This document shows positions 1-34,029 of a DNA stretch of 37,704 nt, in pieces. The position numbers were made by a program, and so were the translations under genes. The stretch is taken from the NCBI GenBank assembly GCA_031280155.1, contig JAITHD010000096.1, positions 1 through 37,704 of the forward strand, read 5' to 3'. Each line of letters opens with the position of its first letter. The stretch's first letter is position 1. This DNA comes from Treponema sp. GTDB lineage: Bacteria; Spirochaetota; Spirochaetia; Treponematales; Breznakiellaceae. The notes under the pieces were generated by a model. It was not told where the DNA came from and searched no databases. It saw only the letters and a program-made list of their open reading frames with translations.

Positions 1-12
1 AAGGAGTTGTGT

Positions 13-687
13 ATGCAAAAAAAGGCTCCCGCCTTTTTCTTCATAATATGTATGGTTTTCTTATCTTTACCTCTCATGGCCCAAGATGCGGAGGAAGAGC
101 AGGAAGGACCAGAGCAGGAAATTCCCATAAATCCAGATTGGGCTAATTATACGCCTTTTATGTATTCCAAAGGAGATCAGCTTTTTGCGATAGCCCCTAT
201 GTTTGTTTTTCCAATAGTCTTTACAAACAGCGCAGGAACAATCGAACATAACCTTAGCGTTATCGGCATAGGCTTATCCCTAAGATATGCCCGATTCCTG
301 AGCCAAGGATTTTTTATAGGCGGTGAAGTAGGGGCTATAGGCATCACCAGCAAGGCGCAGAATTGGTTGTATCTTGTGCCTTTCGGAGTAACAATAGGGT
401 ATCAGATAACCCTGCACCGTACGCAGTTGCCCTTATTCCTGCGGCGTTTTGAATTTCCTTTTTCGCTTATGGCTGGAGGAGTCGTTACAAGTTATCTAAA
501 TAACGAAGAAAACTATCTAGGATTTTTTTTAAAAGCAGGAACCGCGGCGTTTTTCCGGTTTAATCAAGACTGGTCTTTTGGTATTAATGTTGACTGGTGG
601 TGGGTTCCTCAATGGACTAAAGATAAAGCTAAAGACGTATACGGGAATTTTTTTGAATTTACTGTAACCGCCCGTTATCATTTCTAA
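13..687 (+). CDS. Probable outer-membrane beta-barrel protein
   Basis: The protein has 224 residues. An N-terminal signal peptide (basic start, hydrophobic stretch, cleavage near LMAQD) is followed by an acidic Glu/Gln-rich linker and then alternating hydrophobic and glycine-rich strands. It ends in RYHF, and a terminal aromatic residue is typical of BAM-assembled barrels. An in-frame TTG lies at 7, but AAGGAG at 1-6 is six bases from the ATG at 13, so that start is preferred. The lipoprotein gene follows after 15 bases, suggesting co-transcription. The pattern resembles small treponemal OmpW-like barrels; exact family and substrate are not identifiable. The barrel inference is fairly firm, the function unknown. 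Confidence 0.7.
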   Translation: MQKKAPAFFFIICMVFLSLPLMAQDAEEEQEGPEQEIPINPDWANYTPFMYSKGDQLFAIAPMFVFPIVFTNSAGTIEHNLSVIGIGLSLRYARFLSQGFFIGGEVGAIGITSKAQNWLYLVPFGVTIGYQITLHRTQLPLFLRRFEFPFSLMAGGVVTSYLNNEENYLGFFLKAGTAAFFRFNQDWSFGINVDWWWVPQWTKDKAKDVYGNFFEFTVTARYHF

Positions 688-10063: not shown

Positions 10064-10840
10064 CTACCAGAATTTCCGGTTGGAAAACGGCGGTGTTACT
10101 TTTACATCTTCACCGGAAGGTTCAATAACGTAGAAACCCTGTTTTAAGGCGTATGTCTTTACCTCTTCACCGGCGACCGCAGCGGCTAGTGATCCATAAA
10201 ACTTCCGGTCGTCTCCGTGCAGATCCGCGTAAGCCCGGATTTTTTCCATACGTTTAATGTGTTCGTCAATATTGTCGGTCTTGAGATGTATCTTCACCTC
10301 AACCGCCATAGCCTCGCCGCCGTTTTCCAGAAGCGCGTCTATCTCCGCGTGTATACGATGTTCCTTATCGTCGAGATTTACGTTCTCGCTCAATTTACTG
10401 AAATTAAAGCCGTATTTTTTGAATTTTTCCTTCAAATTGGGGACAAGGGTATGTTCAGCGAATTCCCCGAACCGGTTGCCCAGATGTCCGACCGCTTTTT
10501 GAAGCTCTGCGATGTTTTTCTCTGTGTTTACCTGAAACGCCTCTGTACTTGCCCGAAGCTCTGCGATGTTCTTTTCTGTGCTTGCCCGAAACGCCTCTGT
10601 GTTTACCTGAAACGCCTCTGTACTTGCCCGAAGCTCTGTGATGTTCTTTTCTGTGCTTGCCCGAAGCTCTGTGATGTTCTTTTCTGTGCTTGCCCGAAGC
10701 TCTGCGATGTTCTTTTCTGTGCTTGCCTGAAACGCCGCAAGTCCTTTTGCGTTCTCTTCCTGAATTTTTTCGGTTCTGTCTAAGGTTTCCCAAATACGCT
10801 TGTACAGCGGGGACTTTCGTTTCTTCCTTCCTATAGTCAT
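10064..10840 (-). CDS. Coiled-coil protein with PD-(D/E)XK nuclease-like C-terminus (DUF3782-like)
   Basis: The frame is open from 10930, but GGAG five bases before the ATG at 10840 makes that the likely start, giving 258 residues. The basic N-terminus (IGRKKRKSPLYKRIWETL) leads into a long coiled coil. It is built from near-identical 11-residue units (ASTEKNIAELR, ASTEKNITELR, ASTEAFQVNTE). The C-terminal 130 residues contain HAEIDALLENGGEAMAVEVK, where the E..D...EVK spacing fits a PD-(D/E)XK catalytic core. This layout is that of DUF3782-type proteins common near mobile DNA. The nuclease activity and biological role are not established. Confidence 0.65.
   Translation of the reverse strand: MTIGRKKRKSPLYKRIWETLDRTEKIQEENAKGLAAFQASTEKNIAELRASTEKNITELRASTEKNITELRASTEAFQVNTEAFRASTEKNIAELRASTEAFQVNTEKNIAELQKAVGHLGNRFGEFAEHTLVPNLKEKFKKYGFNFSKLSENVNLDDKEHRIHAEIDALLENGGEAMAVEVKIHLKTDNIDEHIKRMEKIRAYADLHGDDRKFYGSLAAAVAGEEVKTYALKQGFYVIEPSGEDVKVTPPFSNRKFW
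10510..10735 (-). repeat. 33-bp coding tandem repeats (coiled-coil units)
   Basis: About six units of 33 bases, or a multiple of it, encode the STEKN(I)xELRA heptad-like pattern in the DUF3782-like gene. Identity between units is high at DNA level, so copy number could change by slippage or recombination without breaking the frame. Confidence 0.7.
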
Positions 10841-10930
10841 AACGTCTCCACTTCTAAAAATATGCCGTTTCAGAGGGCCGGTCAAGATATTCCACCGTAA
10901 GTCCGCACTTGCCGTCTTTGCTCCCCGCAA

Positions 10931-11114: not shown

Positions 11115-11278
11115 TGGACTTTACCCTGTTAGGTAGAGAGAATTAAGCGGTCAAGTTCCATGGAAATCCGTTATGCCCACAATAGTCAAGAGCCTAATGT
11201 AAACGGATTCGGTTATAATACGCCTCGATGCACATGAATAACGGCTGCCGAACTTCGGCTTCCGGGTGTTTACCGCCC
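11115..11278 (-). repeat. IS3-family transposase tail fragment, copy 1
   Basis: The minus strand encodes IEAYYNRIRLH, a stop, then ALDYCGHNGFPWNLTA and a stop: the C-terminus of an IS3/IS150-type integrase-fold transposase. A second copy with about 85-90% identity lies at 29993-30158, with matching boundaries on both sides. The fragment joins the broken relB gene at its 3' side. Confidence 0.75.
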
Positions 11279-29992: not shown

Positions 29993-30158
29993 TGGACTTT
30001 ACCCCGTTAGGTAGAGAGAGTTAAGCGGACAAGTTCCATTGAAACCCGTTAGCCCCCACAATAGTCAAGAGCCGAATGTAAACGGATTCGGTTATAATAC
30101 GCCTCGATGTACAATGAATAGCAACTGCCGAACTTCGGCTTCCGGGTGTTTGCCGCCC
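29993..30158 (-). repeat. IS3-family transposase tail fragment, copy 2
   Basis: The minus strand encodes YIEAYYNRIRLHSALDYCG, with the frame then shifting to NGFQWNLSA and a stop. It pairs with copy 1 at 11115-11278. It lies between the phage-like fragment and the IS1595-like fragment. Confidence 0.75.
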
Positions 30159-30412
30159 ACCGCGTTTTGCCAGCCCAAAGACCGGCGTTTTCCCCGTCCC
30201 CGCTTCGCGCCGAAATACGGCTCCTCCAGTTCAAACCCGCCGTCACCCCGGGGCGTTTCTTTCAGGGTCTCTTTTAGTATTGTTTCCCGCAAGACCTTGT
30301 AGTTGTTGTTGACGGTCTTGCGGTTTACCTTCACCAGTTTTGCCGCGGCGGCCGCGGTTATATCCTCGCTAAAGAACAATAAAATCTTATTGACCTTTTT
30401 GTGCGCTTAATC
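30159..30412 (-). pseudogene. IS1595-family transposase N-terminal fragment
   Basis: The minus strand encodes LLFFSEDITAAAAAKLVKVN, then RKTVNNNYKVLRE and later ELEEPYFGAKRGRGKRRS. This is the helix-turn-helix start and first catalytic-region block (VDESYFG in intact members) of an IS1595/ISXO2-like transposase. Here the motif reads LEEPYFG, with Pro in place of Ser and the catalytic Asp changed to Glu. The rest of the transposase is missing; the IS3-tail repeat follows directly. Confidence 0.7.
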
Positions 30413-30472
30413 TCTTCTACAGCATATACTTACATCATCTCCTCGCCGGTGATGATGGTCTAGAGCCTTATT

Positions 30473-31768
30473 TTATATATTCATTATTTCGAGTGCCTTT
30501 TCAAATATTTTTTTTATTTTCTTTTCTTTTATTTCAGATTCATTAAATCTAAAGCATACATTAACCTTATTGTTTACTGTAATAATACCAACGGTTAATA
30601 GATTTGCGGGAAATGCAGGTCCAATAAACTGTATATCTAAAACATTTATATTTTCATAATTATTGAAATCATATTTTCCTAGATTGGAAATGCCCAAACC
30701 TTTATTTTCCAATTGTTCCCCTATCAATTCAGCCAATTTCTTTGATACATGGTGTTCAAAATTACCGTAGGCCGCAAACATTATTGATTCGATTAAGTCC
30801 TTGTCAAATTCATTGAGAAAATGCACCGCCAAATGCCTGTTTTTTGTATTGAGTAATTGTTCTTTTAATATTATGGCTGTATCTTTTGCTTTTGATATAA
30901 AATCATTTTCGAGATTTCTAGTTACTTTTGCGGCAATTCCTGTAACAAAATTCCCCATACAATTATTCGGTTCAGATACCAAGTCATTACGAATATTTGC
31001 CGCTACCCCGACACGAAGTTCTTCCCTGTCAAGTGTTTCCATGAGCGCTACAGAAAAAGCGGATGTAATTACTTCATTTACCGTCAAGCCGTTTGATTTG
31101 CTTTTTTCCAATAATTTTTTTACGCTATCCCCTTCCAGCGAAGCCGTATAAAGATTGGGGTTATATGTTTTACGATATTTTTTAAAAAAATCATTGTAAT
31201 CTTTTTCGGTAAAACAGGTGCGGTTCTTTCTCCACTCCCCATTAAGCCGCTGCGCGTAGTCTTTTGCTGGCTGTTCCAAAAGGATTGTTTCTTTAAAATA
31301 TTTTTCTTCAGGTTTAAATGGCGGCAATTCTTGATTTGCGTCTATTTTATTATCCAAAGCCAATAATATATCTTTTACCAAATTTAAATAACCAATCCCA
31401 TCGCCAATAATATGATGCCCTAAAATAATTATTTCAGTGTCTTTTCCATTAATTACACAAAATTTAACCAGCGGGCCTTTTAAAAAATCAAATGGAATAT
31501 TATCATTTGTTTTATACCATGTTTGCCAATCAATTTCAGTTGATTTATAACATTCAATGCTTAAACCGCAGCTTTGAACAAGCCATGCATTATTGCCATT
31601 GTCTATTTTCAAGGAACAATTCAACAAAGGATGTTTTATACAAATTTTTTCCAAGGCTTCTTTTACTTTATTTTTGTCAAGTGTCCCGCCAATAATCACT
31701 CTAAAGCATACATTTATACTTGGGGAACGCAAGTATAGTCTTTCATTCATTAACGGAAAATTGTCCAT
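30473..31768 (-). CDS. Stand-alone condensation/acyltransferase-fold protein
   Basis: The 431-residue protein has the chloramphenicol-acetyltransferase/condensation fold. The catalytic motif HHxxxDG appears as LGHHIIGDGIGYL near residues 118-130, and the second half has a GVAANIRND(L) and MGNFVTG block like the DFG/latch region of condensation or alcohol acetyltransferase domains. It is not attached to adenylation or carrier domains and no NRPS gene is near. Possible roles are O- or N-acylation of a lipid, alcohol or peptide (PapA/AATase-like). The coding sequence is strikingly AT-rich and Asn/Lys-rich compared with neighbours, and it sits beside IS debris, which points to recent acquisition. 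SD GAGG lies before ATG 31768. Confidence 0.75.
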   Translation of the reverse strand: MDNFPLMNERLYLRSPSINVCFRVIIGGTLDKNKVKEALEKICIKHPLLNCSLKIDNGNNAWLVQSCGLSIECYKSTEIDWQTWYKTNDNIPFDFLKGPLVKFCVINGKDTEIIILGHHIIGDGIGYLNLVKDILLALDNKIDANQELPPFKPEEKYFKETILLEQPAKDYAQRLNGEWRKNRTCFTEKDYNDFFKKYRKTYNPNLYTASLEGDSVKKLLEKSKSNGLTVNEVITSAFSVALMETLDREELRVGVAANIRNDLVSEPNNCMGNFVTGIAAKVTRNLENDFISKAKDTAIILKEQLLNTKNRHLAVHFLNEFDKDLIESIMFAAYGNFEHHVSKKLAELIGEQLENKGLGISNLGKYDFNNYENINVLDIQFIGPAFPANLLTVGIITVNNKVNVCFRFNESEIKEKKIKKIFEKALEIMNI

Positions 31769-31791
31769 TTTGCAACCTCTATTTTATGATT

Positions 31792-31818
31792 ATTATAGTA
31801 TCCTGCAACTTTTGTCAA
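31792..31818 (-). promoter_or_regulatory. Promoter of the acyltransferase-fold gene
   Basis: On the minus strand TTTGACA ends at 31813 and TATAAT occupies 31797-31792, with 15-16 bases between. It lies about 25 bases from the ATG. Confidence 0.55.
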
Positions 31819-31945
31819 ACCCTTTTCCATAAATTTTTTACAATTTCTAAACCATTTTGCCTTCATTTCGCATAACAGGATTATTTACCCTGCGCCCCCT
31901 CTGACATGATTGGCTCCGGTTCCGCCGTATTTTGCCTGCCCCGGC

Positions 31946-31969
31946 GCTTTGCTCCGCAAAGCCTTTTTT
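31946..31969 (+). terminator. Orphan intrinsic terminator on the plus strand
   Basis: GCTTTGC-TCC-GCAAAGC (31946-31962) is a perfect 7-bp stem, followed by C and six T residues. Both neighbouring genes run on the minus strand, so no obvious plus-strand transcript ends here. Confidence 0.55.
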
Positions 31970-32035
31970 GGACCGGTAAAACAGCGTATGATGAAACATC
32001 AAACAAAGCCATAATTGAAGCCCAACAGCCGATAC

Positions 32036-32833
32036 CTAAATGCCGTGGATGTTCTGTTCTATTTCCTTGAAATACCGTACGGTGCCCACCTTGAGTTCAT
32101 CGGTGGCATCCTCATCACAGACAATAATCGCCCTGGGGTGCATCTGGAGGCAGGAAAGGGTACATAGATGGTTGACCCCCCCTTCTACCGCAGCCTGGAG
32201 CGCCCGAGCTTTGGCATGACCGTTCACAAGGATCATCACCTCCCCGGCGTCCATAATAGTTCCGACGCCTACAGTGAGGGCCGTGGAGGGGACTTTGTTG
32301 ACGTCTCCCTCAAAAAACCGGGCGTTGGCTATCTTGGTGTCCTTGGCGAGGGTCTTTATTCTGGTTCGGGACGTGAGGGACGAACCAGGTTCATTGAAAG
32401 CTATATGTCCGTCGCTGCCCATACCGCCAAAGAAAAGCTCTATCCCTCCAAAGGAAGCAATACGGGCCTCATAGTCCCGGCATTCTTGGGCCAAATCGGA
32501 GGCCATGCCGTTGGGGATATGCGCGTTGGTTTTATCTATATTAATATAACTAAAAAAATTATCCCACATGAACCGGCGGTAACTTTGAGGGTGATCCTCT
32601 CCAATACCTATGTATTCATCCATGTTAAACGTAACCACTTGAGCAAAGGATACTTTCCCGTCTTTATAAGCCTTGATAAGTTCCTGATAAACCCTCAAAG
32701 GGCTGGAACCGGTAGGAAGCCCCAATACAAAAGGTTTATCCTTGCGGGGTTCAAAGCTATTGATCCGGTCTATGATATACGCCGCGGCCCAGCGGCTTGC
32801 CGCGGCATAATCTTTATGAATAATAAGACGCAT
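32036..32833 (-). CDS. nagB: Glucosamine-6-phosphate deaminase
   Basis: The 265-residue enzyme converts glucosamine 6-phosphate to fructose 6-phosphate and ammonia. Blocks match Nag[38 protein letters not shown] (catalytic Asp), [20 protein letters not shown] ([11 protein letters not shown]) and the active-site His within DGHIAF. Length matches Escherichia coli NagB (266). GGGGA precedes ATG 32833. It follows nagA by 26 bases on the same strand, so the two successive steps of N-acetylglucosamine catabolism are one operon. Confidence 0.96.
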
Positions 32834-32859
32834 ACTTTCCCCCTACTGGCTCTAAGTTT

Positions 32860-34029
32860 CTAAAAAACGTTCTTTTTGATAACCCCGCCGACCATAACGG
32901 CCAACACCTTAAATTCCCTATCGAATACGGTTAAATCCGCATCCCGGCCGGGAATAATAGCCCCTTTCCGGGCATAACGCATCACCTGAGCGGGGTTGAA
33001 GCCGGAAGTTTTCACCGCATCCTCCAAGCCAAACCCCACGGAGAGGAGGTTCTTGATTCCCCGAATCATGGTAAGGGAGGAACCGGCTATCACATTGTCG
33101 GTTTTCCGATGGAATACCCCGTCCCGGAATACTACTTCTTCCCCATTGGCAAAAAAAGGCCCTTGAGACTGTTCCGTGGGCTTGAGCGCGTCGGTCACCA
33201 GTACGATCTTGTCAATAGGCTTATCCCGCAGAAGCAGCTTAAAGAGGTCCGGATGCACATGGTAACCGTCGGCAATGATCTCGCAGGACATTTCGGTATG
33301 GATGAGCACCGCCCCAACCGCGTTAGGATTGCGGTGATCCAGCTTGCTCATGGCGTTAAAAAGATGGGTGGCATGGAGGATTCCCGCCTGCATACCCTCT
33401 ACCATGTGCTCATACTGCGCATCCGTATGGCCCGCCTGTAGGATGATCCCCTTCTTAATACAGTAAAGGGCCAGTTCCCGCATACCCTTGATCTCCGGCG
33501 CTACGGTCATATTAACGATACGCCCGCCGGAAGCCTGCCAGAGCCGCTCCATGAAATCTATATCCACCGGTTTCAAGGTTTCGGCTTTCTGAACTCCCAG
33601 GCGATCCGGTGAAAGGAAAGGGCCTTCCAGATGCAATCCCATGATCCGGGATCCCGGCTCCCTGCCCATAGCAGAAGCCACCTGAGCGACCGCTTCCAGC
33701 ATGTTCCCGGATTCTCCAGGATAAAGGGTGGGGTTGAAAGCCGTTACTCCGTATTGGGATAGAAGCCGGGACATTTCCATCATCGAATCCGCTGAAGCGT
33801 CGTCAGTTCCATAACCGCCGAACCCATGGATGTGGGTATCGATAAATCCCGGGGCAATATAAGCTCCTTGGACATCGATAATGCGGACGTCCGAATCGAA
33901 ACGTTTCTTTTCAAACCGTTTCTGGGAAAAAACATCCGCCACCGTACCGCCTTCAACCAACACCGCGCAGTGTTCCATAGAAGCGAAACCGGTCATCACC
34001 GTCCCATTATGCAGGCAGATAGAGCTCAT
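32860..34029 (-). CDS. nagA: N-acetylglucosamine-6-phosphate deacetylase
   Basis: The 389-residue amidohydrolase removes the acetyl group from N-acetylglucosamine 6-phosphate. Marks include FIDTHIHGFGGYGTDD, GLHLEGPFLS (metal-binding Glu), LQAGHTDA and HATHLFNAMSKLDHRNP (metal His residues), and LVTDALKPTEQ (catalytic Asp). Length is normal. It is the first gene of the nagA-nagB pair and lies 66 bases from the convergently unrelated spoIID-like gene, which is also on the minus strand and upstream, so read-through from that gene is possible. No PTS component is visible in the window. Confidence 0.95.
   Translation of the reverse strand: MSSICLHNGTVMTGFASMEHCAVLVEGGTVADVFSQKRFEKKRFDSDVRIIDVQGAYIAPGFIDTHIHGFGGYGTDDASADSMMEMSRLLSQYGVTAFNPTLYPGESGNMLEAVAQVASAMGREPGSRIMGLHLEGPFLSPDRLGVQKAETLKPVDIDFMERLWQASGGRIVNMTVAPEIKGMRELALYCIKKGIILQAGHTDAQYEHMVEGMQAGILHATHLFNAMSKLDHRNPNAVGAVLIHTEMSCEIIADGYHVHPDLFKLLLRDKPIDKIVLVTDALKPTEQSQGPFFANGEEVVFRDGVFHRKTDNVIAGSSLTMIRGIKNLLSVGFGLEDAVKTSGFNPAQVMRYARKGAIIPGRDADLTVFDREFKVLAVMVGGVIKKNVF

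Follow-up and report, generated by a model that had tools for sequence, protein, structure and literature searches.

A free-standing condensation-fold acyltransferase gene as probable integron cassette cargo in a Treponema lineage reported to lack integrons

The isolation of a free-standing condensation-fold acyltransferase gene in a Treponema contig is best explained by carriage as an integron cassette, in a lineage reported to be free of integrons. The gene lies in the window, which here denotes the whole analysed stretch of 37,704 nucleotides, in genome G000 (2.48 Mb, 269 contigs, 82% complete). It is intact and real, confirming the original observation of it; the interpretation given with that observation is partly supported and missed that isolation and composition together fit an integron gene cassette. 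We consider it probable that the product is a free-standing acyltransferase with the condensation/PapA fold and that the gene is carried as integron cassette cargo. To the broader proposal, that termite-gut treponemes and their family have an integron system of their own kind with the acyltransferase as one cargo, we assign about even weight. Such a system would combine a sub-cut-off integrase that lacks part of the IntI model and carries an N-terminal extension of ~110 residues, long attC sites, cassette ends that pair well beyond the R box, over ~18 nt and with a single constant mismatch, and solitary cassettes dispersed over the chromosome. The argument draws on the following window features:

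29993–30158, no strand assigned: second insertion-sequence remnant, with copies at window 11115–11278 (91%) and on contigs C31 and C109
30156–30479, no strand assigned: insertion-sequence remnant over the gene's stop codon, 93% identical to a stretch of G000 contig C10 over 335 bases
30473–31768, minus strand: free-standing condensation-fold acyltransferase gene, 431 aa (intact ORF, profile match, alignment, structure model)
31397–31417, minus strand: HHIIGDG catalytic motif, residues 118–124 (sequence and alignment)
31789–31818, minus strand: promoter-like TTGACA-18-AATAAT, 11/12, close upstream of the start codon (site scan)
31868–31894, plus strand: attC-like left arm (R'', spacer, L'') of the family type, opposite to the gene (score 25.4)
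31869–31876, minus strand: GTTATGCG, read as the cassette start (G^TT) of the gene; its other strand is the R'' box of the half-site (sequence reading)
31946–31962, plus strand: hairpin with a T tail
31970–31993, plus strand: perhaps a decayed right arm of the attC-like site (by eye only)
32036–34029, minus strand: nagB and nagA, upstream neighbours and context outside the cassette (ORFs and Pfam)

The predicted enzyme and its relatives

The window protein matched the Pfam Condensation family (PF00668) at E 7e-14, with 51.8 bits against a curated cut-off of 30.6. Its HHxxxDG motif is complete, as originally claimed, and H118, H119, D123 and G124 are invariant in 10/10 aligned sequences, some of them partial. 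NCBIfam returned a weak match to one NRPS/PKS model and nothing else; no CAT profile appeared among Pfam or NCBIfam matches up to E 1, and the PapA_C profile stayed below its cut-off (15.2 bits versus 30, E 0.014). A structure model built from a 10-row alignment (mean pLDDT 72, pTM 0.77) had AzeD of Pseudomonas aeruginosa (PDB 8s6l) as its top match among the folds listed (Z 31.3, rmsd 3.4, 373 aligned residues), followed by the first condensation domain (C1) of CDA synthetase (Z 25.7), PapA5 (22.8) and a bacterial wax synthase (22.6). PapA5 (1q9j) and the wax synthase (6chj) have the same fold and perform free-standing acyl transfer, at 13% and 12% identity to the window protein. Together with the Pfam match, the likeness to PapA5 and to the free-standing AzeD bears out the earlier assignment to the condensation fold.

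Our best reading of the modelled protein is a free-standing thioester-dependent acyltransferase that uses CoA or a carrier. Such an enzyme would transfer the acyl moiety of an acyl-CoA or carrier thioester onto an amine or hydroxyl; to judge from the fold, the general base would probably be the second His of HHIIGDG. It might make an acylated product new to such organisms, as originally suggested. An AzeD-like role instead, whether as a dehydratase or on a carrier protein in trans, appears quite unlikely. The PDB title calls AzeD a dehydratase, its fold ranks above all others listed, with full-length likeness over 373 residues, and among solved structures compared by sequence its entry is second best after bacitracin synthase 3; however, identity is only 16%, the reaction cannot be read from a shared fold, and G000 (82% complete) holds no other condensation domain. 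Azetidomonamide is described as an NRPS-type product in the available part of a review of dehydroamino acids (PMC10880069), whereas the window gene has no NRPS in the window or in G000, at that same completeness.

The lack of an NRPS partner, part of the original prediction, thus holds for the window, and in G000 the gene gives the sole PF00668 match. We extended the PF00668 search to 12 further genomes, a set drawn from outside the L007 genome described below, and found no condensation domain beyond the orphan copies in ten of them (G003, G205, G016, G116, G171, G061, G029, G126, G070 and G575, the last being the Po218 genome); G003 and G116 had no PF00668 match at all. G545 has one orphan PF00668 match, and G436 has ten, several of them in NRPS-sized ORFs.

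A family-wide search found the acyltransferase in 10/195 genomes, in several of them as remnants, and it is therefore no vertical housekeeping gene. Full or near-full copies occur in G000, G205 (where the contig begins inside the gene), G016 (final residues out of frame), G171, G061 and G029 (two paralogues), and partial forms in G126 (contig-end piece), G116 (broken piece), G070 (degraded) and G003 (remnant of ~30 residues). Within the window's genus, represented by six genomes that are all 62–82% complete, one carries the intact copy and another the G003 remnant, with different contig neighbours. This pattern and the lack of a CAT match speak against the vertically shared housekeeping or CAT clade that was named with the original prediction as its refutation. 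A peptide-pattern scan of genome contigs, sensitive to close relatives only, picked up five loci with spirochaete labels throughout and added two homologues, PG1894_85 (L007) and Po218_bin106 (L011), the former being the closest homologue of the window protein (73% identity). By profile search across the phylum, 18/392 genomes matched, those outside the family distantly. In a 17-sequence tree, nine family-type copies formed one clade (99/100), with the window sequence beside that of PG1894 (90/85). Among viral contigs, the protein profile picked out 25 stretches, of which 0 were confirmed. Among plasmids, the window protein had no match; for the G061 protein, with E up to 10, the best 30 of 105 matches all fell below 30% identity and were mostly NRPS or condensation proteins. 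The sample code Th196 of one homologue stands for Termes hospes, a termite, in the available part of PMC7024585; names and relatedness suggest a termite origin for the other homologues as well.

A look for partner genes at homologous loci, which had been suggested with the original prediction, found no constant partner. In G016 (L020 4825–12451) and G116 (L027 1054–3529), the gene or its broken piece lies directly downstream of a gene for a phosphonopyruvate-decarboxylase-like TPP enzyme, presumably AepY; PEP mutase is near both loci, and in L020 an NTP-transferase/aminotransferase fusion comes after. These loci are a phosphonate cluster with the acyltransferase inside, and we rejected the phosphonate genes as a constant partner, as they are common to the G016/G116 genus only. 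In G029, one of the two paralogues shares 4 bases with the beginning of a GDSL lipase gene (L024 3249–5692). A protein family of 216–228 aa without a Pfam match (L022 6997–7659, L024 5719–6405, L026 5878–6528, L097 1551–2234, also L180, L151 and L156) is adjacent to the acyltransferase gene or a piece of it in three genomes (G061, G029, G070). This candidate, too, was rejected as a constant partner, because its relatives occur near other attC or integrase loci (L097, L180, L151, L156).

These settings also bear on the enzyme's role. Rather than yielding a product, its acylation might serve to inactivate a drug or toxin or to protect against one; we think this doubtful, though such a role is compatible with cassette carriage. 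The cassette setting itself, a GNAT acetyltransferase in another cassette of the genus (L128) and an MFS transporter gene ~1 kb from the G061 copy point in this direction; against it, no relative of known resistance function appeared among the matches, and other neighbours are surface-sugar (G171) or phosphonate (G016) genes.

Distribution likewise bears on whether the gene could be an old vertical gene that most lineages of the family have lost and that is adjoined in the window by chance attC-like sequence or an unrelated repeat. In keeping with this, the copies in G016, G171, G061 and G029 show no attC arm, identity between genera is near that of Dxs for several pairs (for example G000–G205, 0.68 versus 0.69), and G016 and G116 share the site beside AepY. 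We nevertheless judge vertical descent unlikely, given a lone intact copy and a lone remnant, with different contig neighbours, among the genus's six genomes, an identity of 0.69 between G016 and G070 (131 residues) versus 0.58 for Dxs, a gene GC of 0.32 in contigs that are otherwise 47–49% GC (the window, G205 and the G070 remnant), and the fact that L007 is a cassette array. A species-tree conflict considered for G205 and G171, which share a genus label, was dropped because their Dxs identity is 0.67 to each other versus 0.69 and 0.68 to G000.

The window copy and its surroundings

Integron cassettes recombine by crossover at G^TT, and their R'' pairs with the cassette's own R'. A cassette of the kind proposed here would comprise an AT-rich gene, a promoter belonging to it and a terminal attC site, and a tyrosine recombinase would excise and insert it.

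The composition of the gene, which had been called unlike that of its neighbours, is indeed distinct. With GC 0.323 and GC3 0.280, its GC3 is the lowest of 23 window ORFs compared; the other 22, picked by us as likely genes, have a mean GC3 of 0.483 (sd 0.064), placing the acyltransferase gene 3.2 sd below. A promoter-like site lies close upstream of the start codon, among 13 such sites in the window versus 7.1 expected by chance, and TTGACA is similarly placed in the L007 cassettes. Further upstream, nagB and nagA have a second copy on G000 contig C107, at 77% DNA identity to the window copy and without an acyltransferase gene.

The flanking insertion-sequence debris reported earlier was recovered, the stretches 29993–30158 and 30156–30472 being repeated elsewhere in G000 at 82–94% identity. 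Similarity in the latter extends to 30479, across the last 7 bases of the acyltransferase gene. By motif, we take the remnant at 30156–30479, whose ORF has no Pfam match, to be IS1595-like, and that at 29993–30158 to be an IS3-like transposase end. The hairpin that had been called an orphan terminator is present at 31946–31962 on the plus strand, but terminator-like sites number 2 in the window versus 3.0 by chance; by eye, it resembles a hairpin within an L007 attC site (L007 2547–2563). Elsewhere in the window, the ORF at 10064–10930 encodes a protein with tandem TEKNIAELRAS-type repeats. A search for RNA families gave one sub-threshold match and nothing more, and one for defence families gave 0 matches for 9 proteins.

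The attC-like left arm at 31868–31894 scored 25.4, versus best shuffles of 20.8 (of 20) and 20.5 (of 200), a score that is partly circular because 3/6 training sites had been found by similarity to the window stretch. Scored with L007-type arms alone, it reached −3.5, below chance sites in the window. Its candidacy is supported by the family type it resembles, which occurs in complete end-paired sites elsewhere. No right arm passing the score was found at this site, whose folding does not exceed that of shuffles (z −0.7 and −1.0). On the gene's side, the 108 bases from GTTATGCG to the ATG align to the cassette start of the L007 homologue better than 300/300 shuffles. This 5' flank scores a little higher with two other L007 cassettes (25.1 and 25.5) than with that of the homologue (24.1), and it therefore reflects layout, not descent. 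The pattern GTTATGY-5..35-TTGACA has 0 matches in the window, where the spacing is longer. At the 3' end, no attC arm occurs in the 600 bases beyond the stop; the gene's own attC is not visible because the insertion-sequence remnant covers this end.

Other copies were searched likewise. Downstream of the G205 copy, a 53-nt site follows the stop codon, with both R boxes, a left arm of 17.4, no right arm by score and a folding z of 0.3. In G003, GTTATGCG lies 56 bases upstream of the remnant's ATG, and there is no arm. Nine other copies or pieces have no arm within 600 bases, L011 and L025 on one side only, the other being off the contig; stray CATAAC or GTTATG hexamers lie near L022, L024 and L027. 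From these features, we infer that the window copy is an integron cassette. It would have entered next to nagB, in head-to-head orientation to an attC-like half-site of older date, and its own attC may have been lost to a later insertion at the 3' end.

Cassette arrays, end pairing and the IntI-like recombinase

The locus of the closest homologue, L007, comprises 5994 bases with a GC of 33% outside the homologue, which is the first of six same-strand genes, each with an attC-like repeat before and after it. The repeats start with GC(A/G)CATAAC and finish with GTTATG(T/C)GC, the first and last being cut by the contig ends, and the five whole sites fold with z of −4.7 to −8.1 versus shuffles. 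In 6/6 L007 cassettes, the start, counted from just past the G of GTT, agrees with the reverse-complemented end of the same cassette at 15–17/18 nt, versus 8–13 of 18 nt for the mismatched start–end combinations (n = 30).

The same relation was found in seven further cassettes from five genomes (three in G022 and one each in G073, G072, G069 and G003; 36 loci scanned). Over the outer 13 nt, own ends scored 9.86 and other ends 4.93, with 1 of 10,000 permutations as good; L007 was left out of this count, as the score used passed one L007 site only. The weakest of the seven is the G072 pair (12/20). At pairing position 10, 14/14 cassettes show an identical mismatch, perhaps an extrahelical base, in which the start has A and the reversed end has G; these are the six of L007, the seven end-paired ones and one at the putative G022 attI (loci L007, L128, L172, L177, L179, L181). 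The cargo of L128, a cassette in the window's own genus, is a GNAT acetyltransferase.

This end pairing follows integron-cassette logic, not MITE logic. The thought that the repeats are MITEs or other hairpin repeats between genes, rather than attC sites, draws on the spread of half-sites over many contigs, up to 28 per genome, as MITEs would be. It is very unlikely, since within individual cassettes the sequence following one repeat pairs with that preceding the next, which is unexpected for a MITE; in addition, the genes lie on one strand in L007 and G022, and an IntI-like gene heads the G022 array. We regard the cassette call for L007 and G022 as firm.

The G022 locus (L172) contains four attC sites in a row, and 3/4 of its cassettes carry ORFs of at least 70 aa (four ORFs in total), at GC 0.20–0.26 versus 0.43 for the stretch. 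The same strand carries, upstream, the gene for a 384-aa tyrosine recombinase (L172 3972–5126), then GTATAAATGACGTTATGCG, then the first cassette. The ends of this cassette pair likewise, and GTATAAATGACGTTATGCG, between the IntI-like gene and the cassette, is a candidate attI-like core, known from this one case. The best solved relative of the recombinase is IntI4, and homologues at 48–54% occur in G205, G029 and G070. Four IntI-like proteins score 186–214 bits against TIGR02249, below the cut-off of 265, and in three of them model positions ~180–230 are unmatched, a segment that we take to be the IntI additional domain. The IntI-like recombinases of L172, L096, L097 and L098 share an N-terminal extension of ~110 residues and SPLD near the C-terminus.

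No integron integrase above the cut-off was found in the 15 genomes searched, and sub-cut-off matches also occur in 14/14 control genomes; below-cut-off matches alone therefore mean little. What supports the IntI-like gene as a putative integrase is its place at the head of an array. An enzyme of this type may be the mover of such cassettes; G000 itself has one weak integrase match, which is unrelated to the IntI-like proteins.

Half-sites of the window type are widespread in the family. A search with window 31790–32035 gave matches in 7/15 genomes, including nine short ones on 31864–31900 in G000, G003, G004, G005 and G070. Complete sites surround three of these (L120 in G070, L121 in G003 and L122 in G004), of which 2/3 passed a stricter L-box test. 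A 25-base half-site pattern with at most 3 mismatches occurs in 106/195 family genomes (reversed control, 0), with 13 half-sites in G000. Among the contigs fetched, 10/12 left arms lie less than 500 bases from a contig end, as repeated sites do in short-read assemblies. Six attC half-sites were counted in G164, a genome of 4.1 Mb listed as 100% complete. Loot et al. 2024, as cited in PMC11023631, reportedly described attG insertion of cassettes into chromosomes, and such insertion would account for single cassettes outside an array.

Relation to known Treponema integrons and significance

Chromosomal integrons are known in T. denticola, T. succinifaciens and T. brennaborense, according to the available part of a 2013 survey (PMC3607928), which gives termite-gut treponemes as without integrons and places the gain in Treponema after the termite-gut species had split off. 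As far as that part goes, the known integrons likewise have attC hairpins with R and L boxes, and the T. brennaborense intI, at 1197 bases (~398 aa), is near the 384–401 aa of three IntI-like ORFs found here. In contrast, family attC sites are mostly 170–190 nt long, versus 63–132 in the known Treponema integrons (PMC3607928); also unlike those, the R box here is GTTATGC, the integrase falls below the IntI cut-off and half-sites occur on many contigs. Another study modelled Spirochaetes attC sites, and the word "termite" is absent from its main text (PMC8352920). Among the matches listed in our literature search, which covered titles and the starts of abstracts and few subscription journals, there was no report of integrons in termite-gut spirochaetes.

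Half-sites in 106/195 genomes together with an IntI-headed array would shift the integron gain earlier or add a second gain. The long end pairing and the missing integrase segment bear directly on cassette recognition. An integron system of this kind would give these gut spirochaetes a means of gene exchange; it would also explain single, partnerless AT-rich enzymes in these genomes and supply cassette cargoes.
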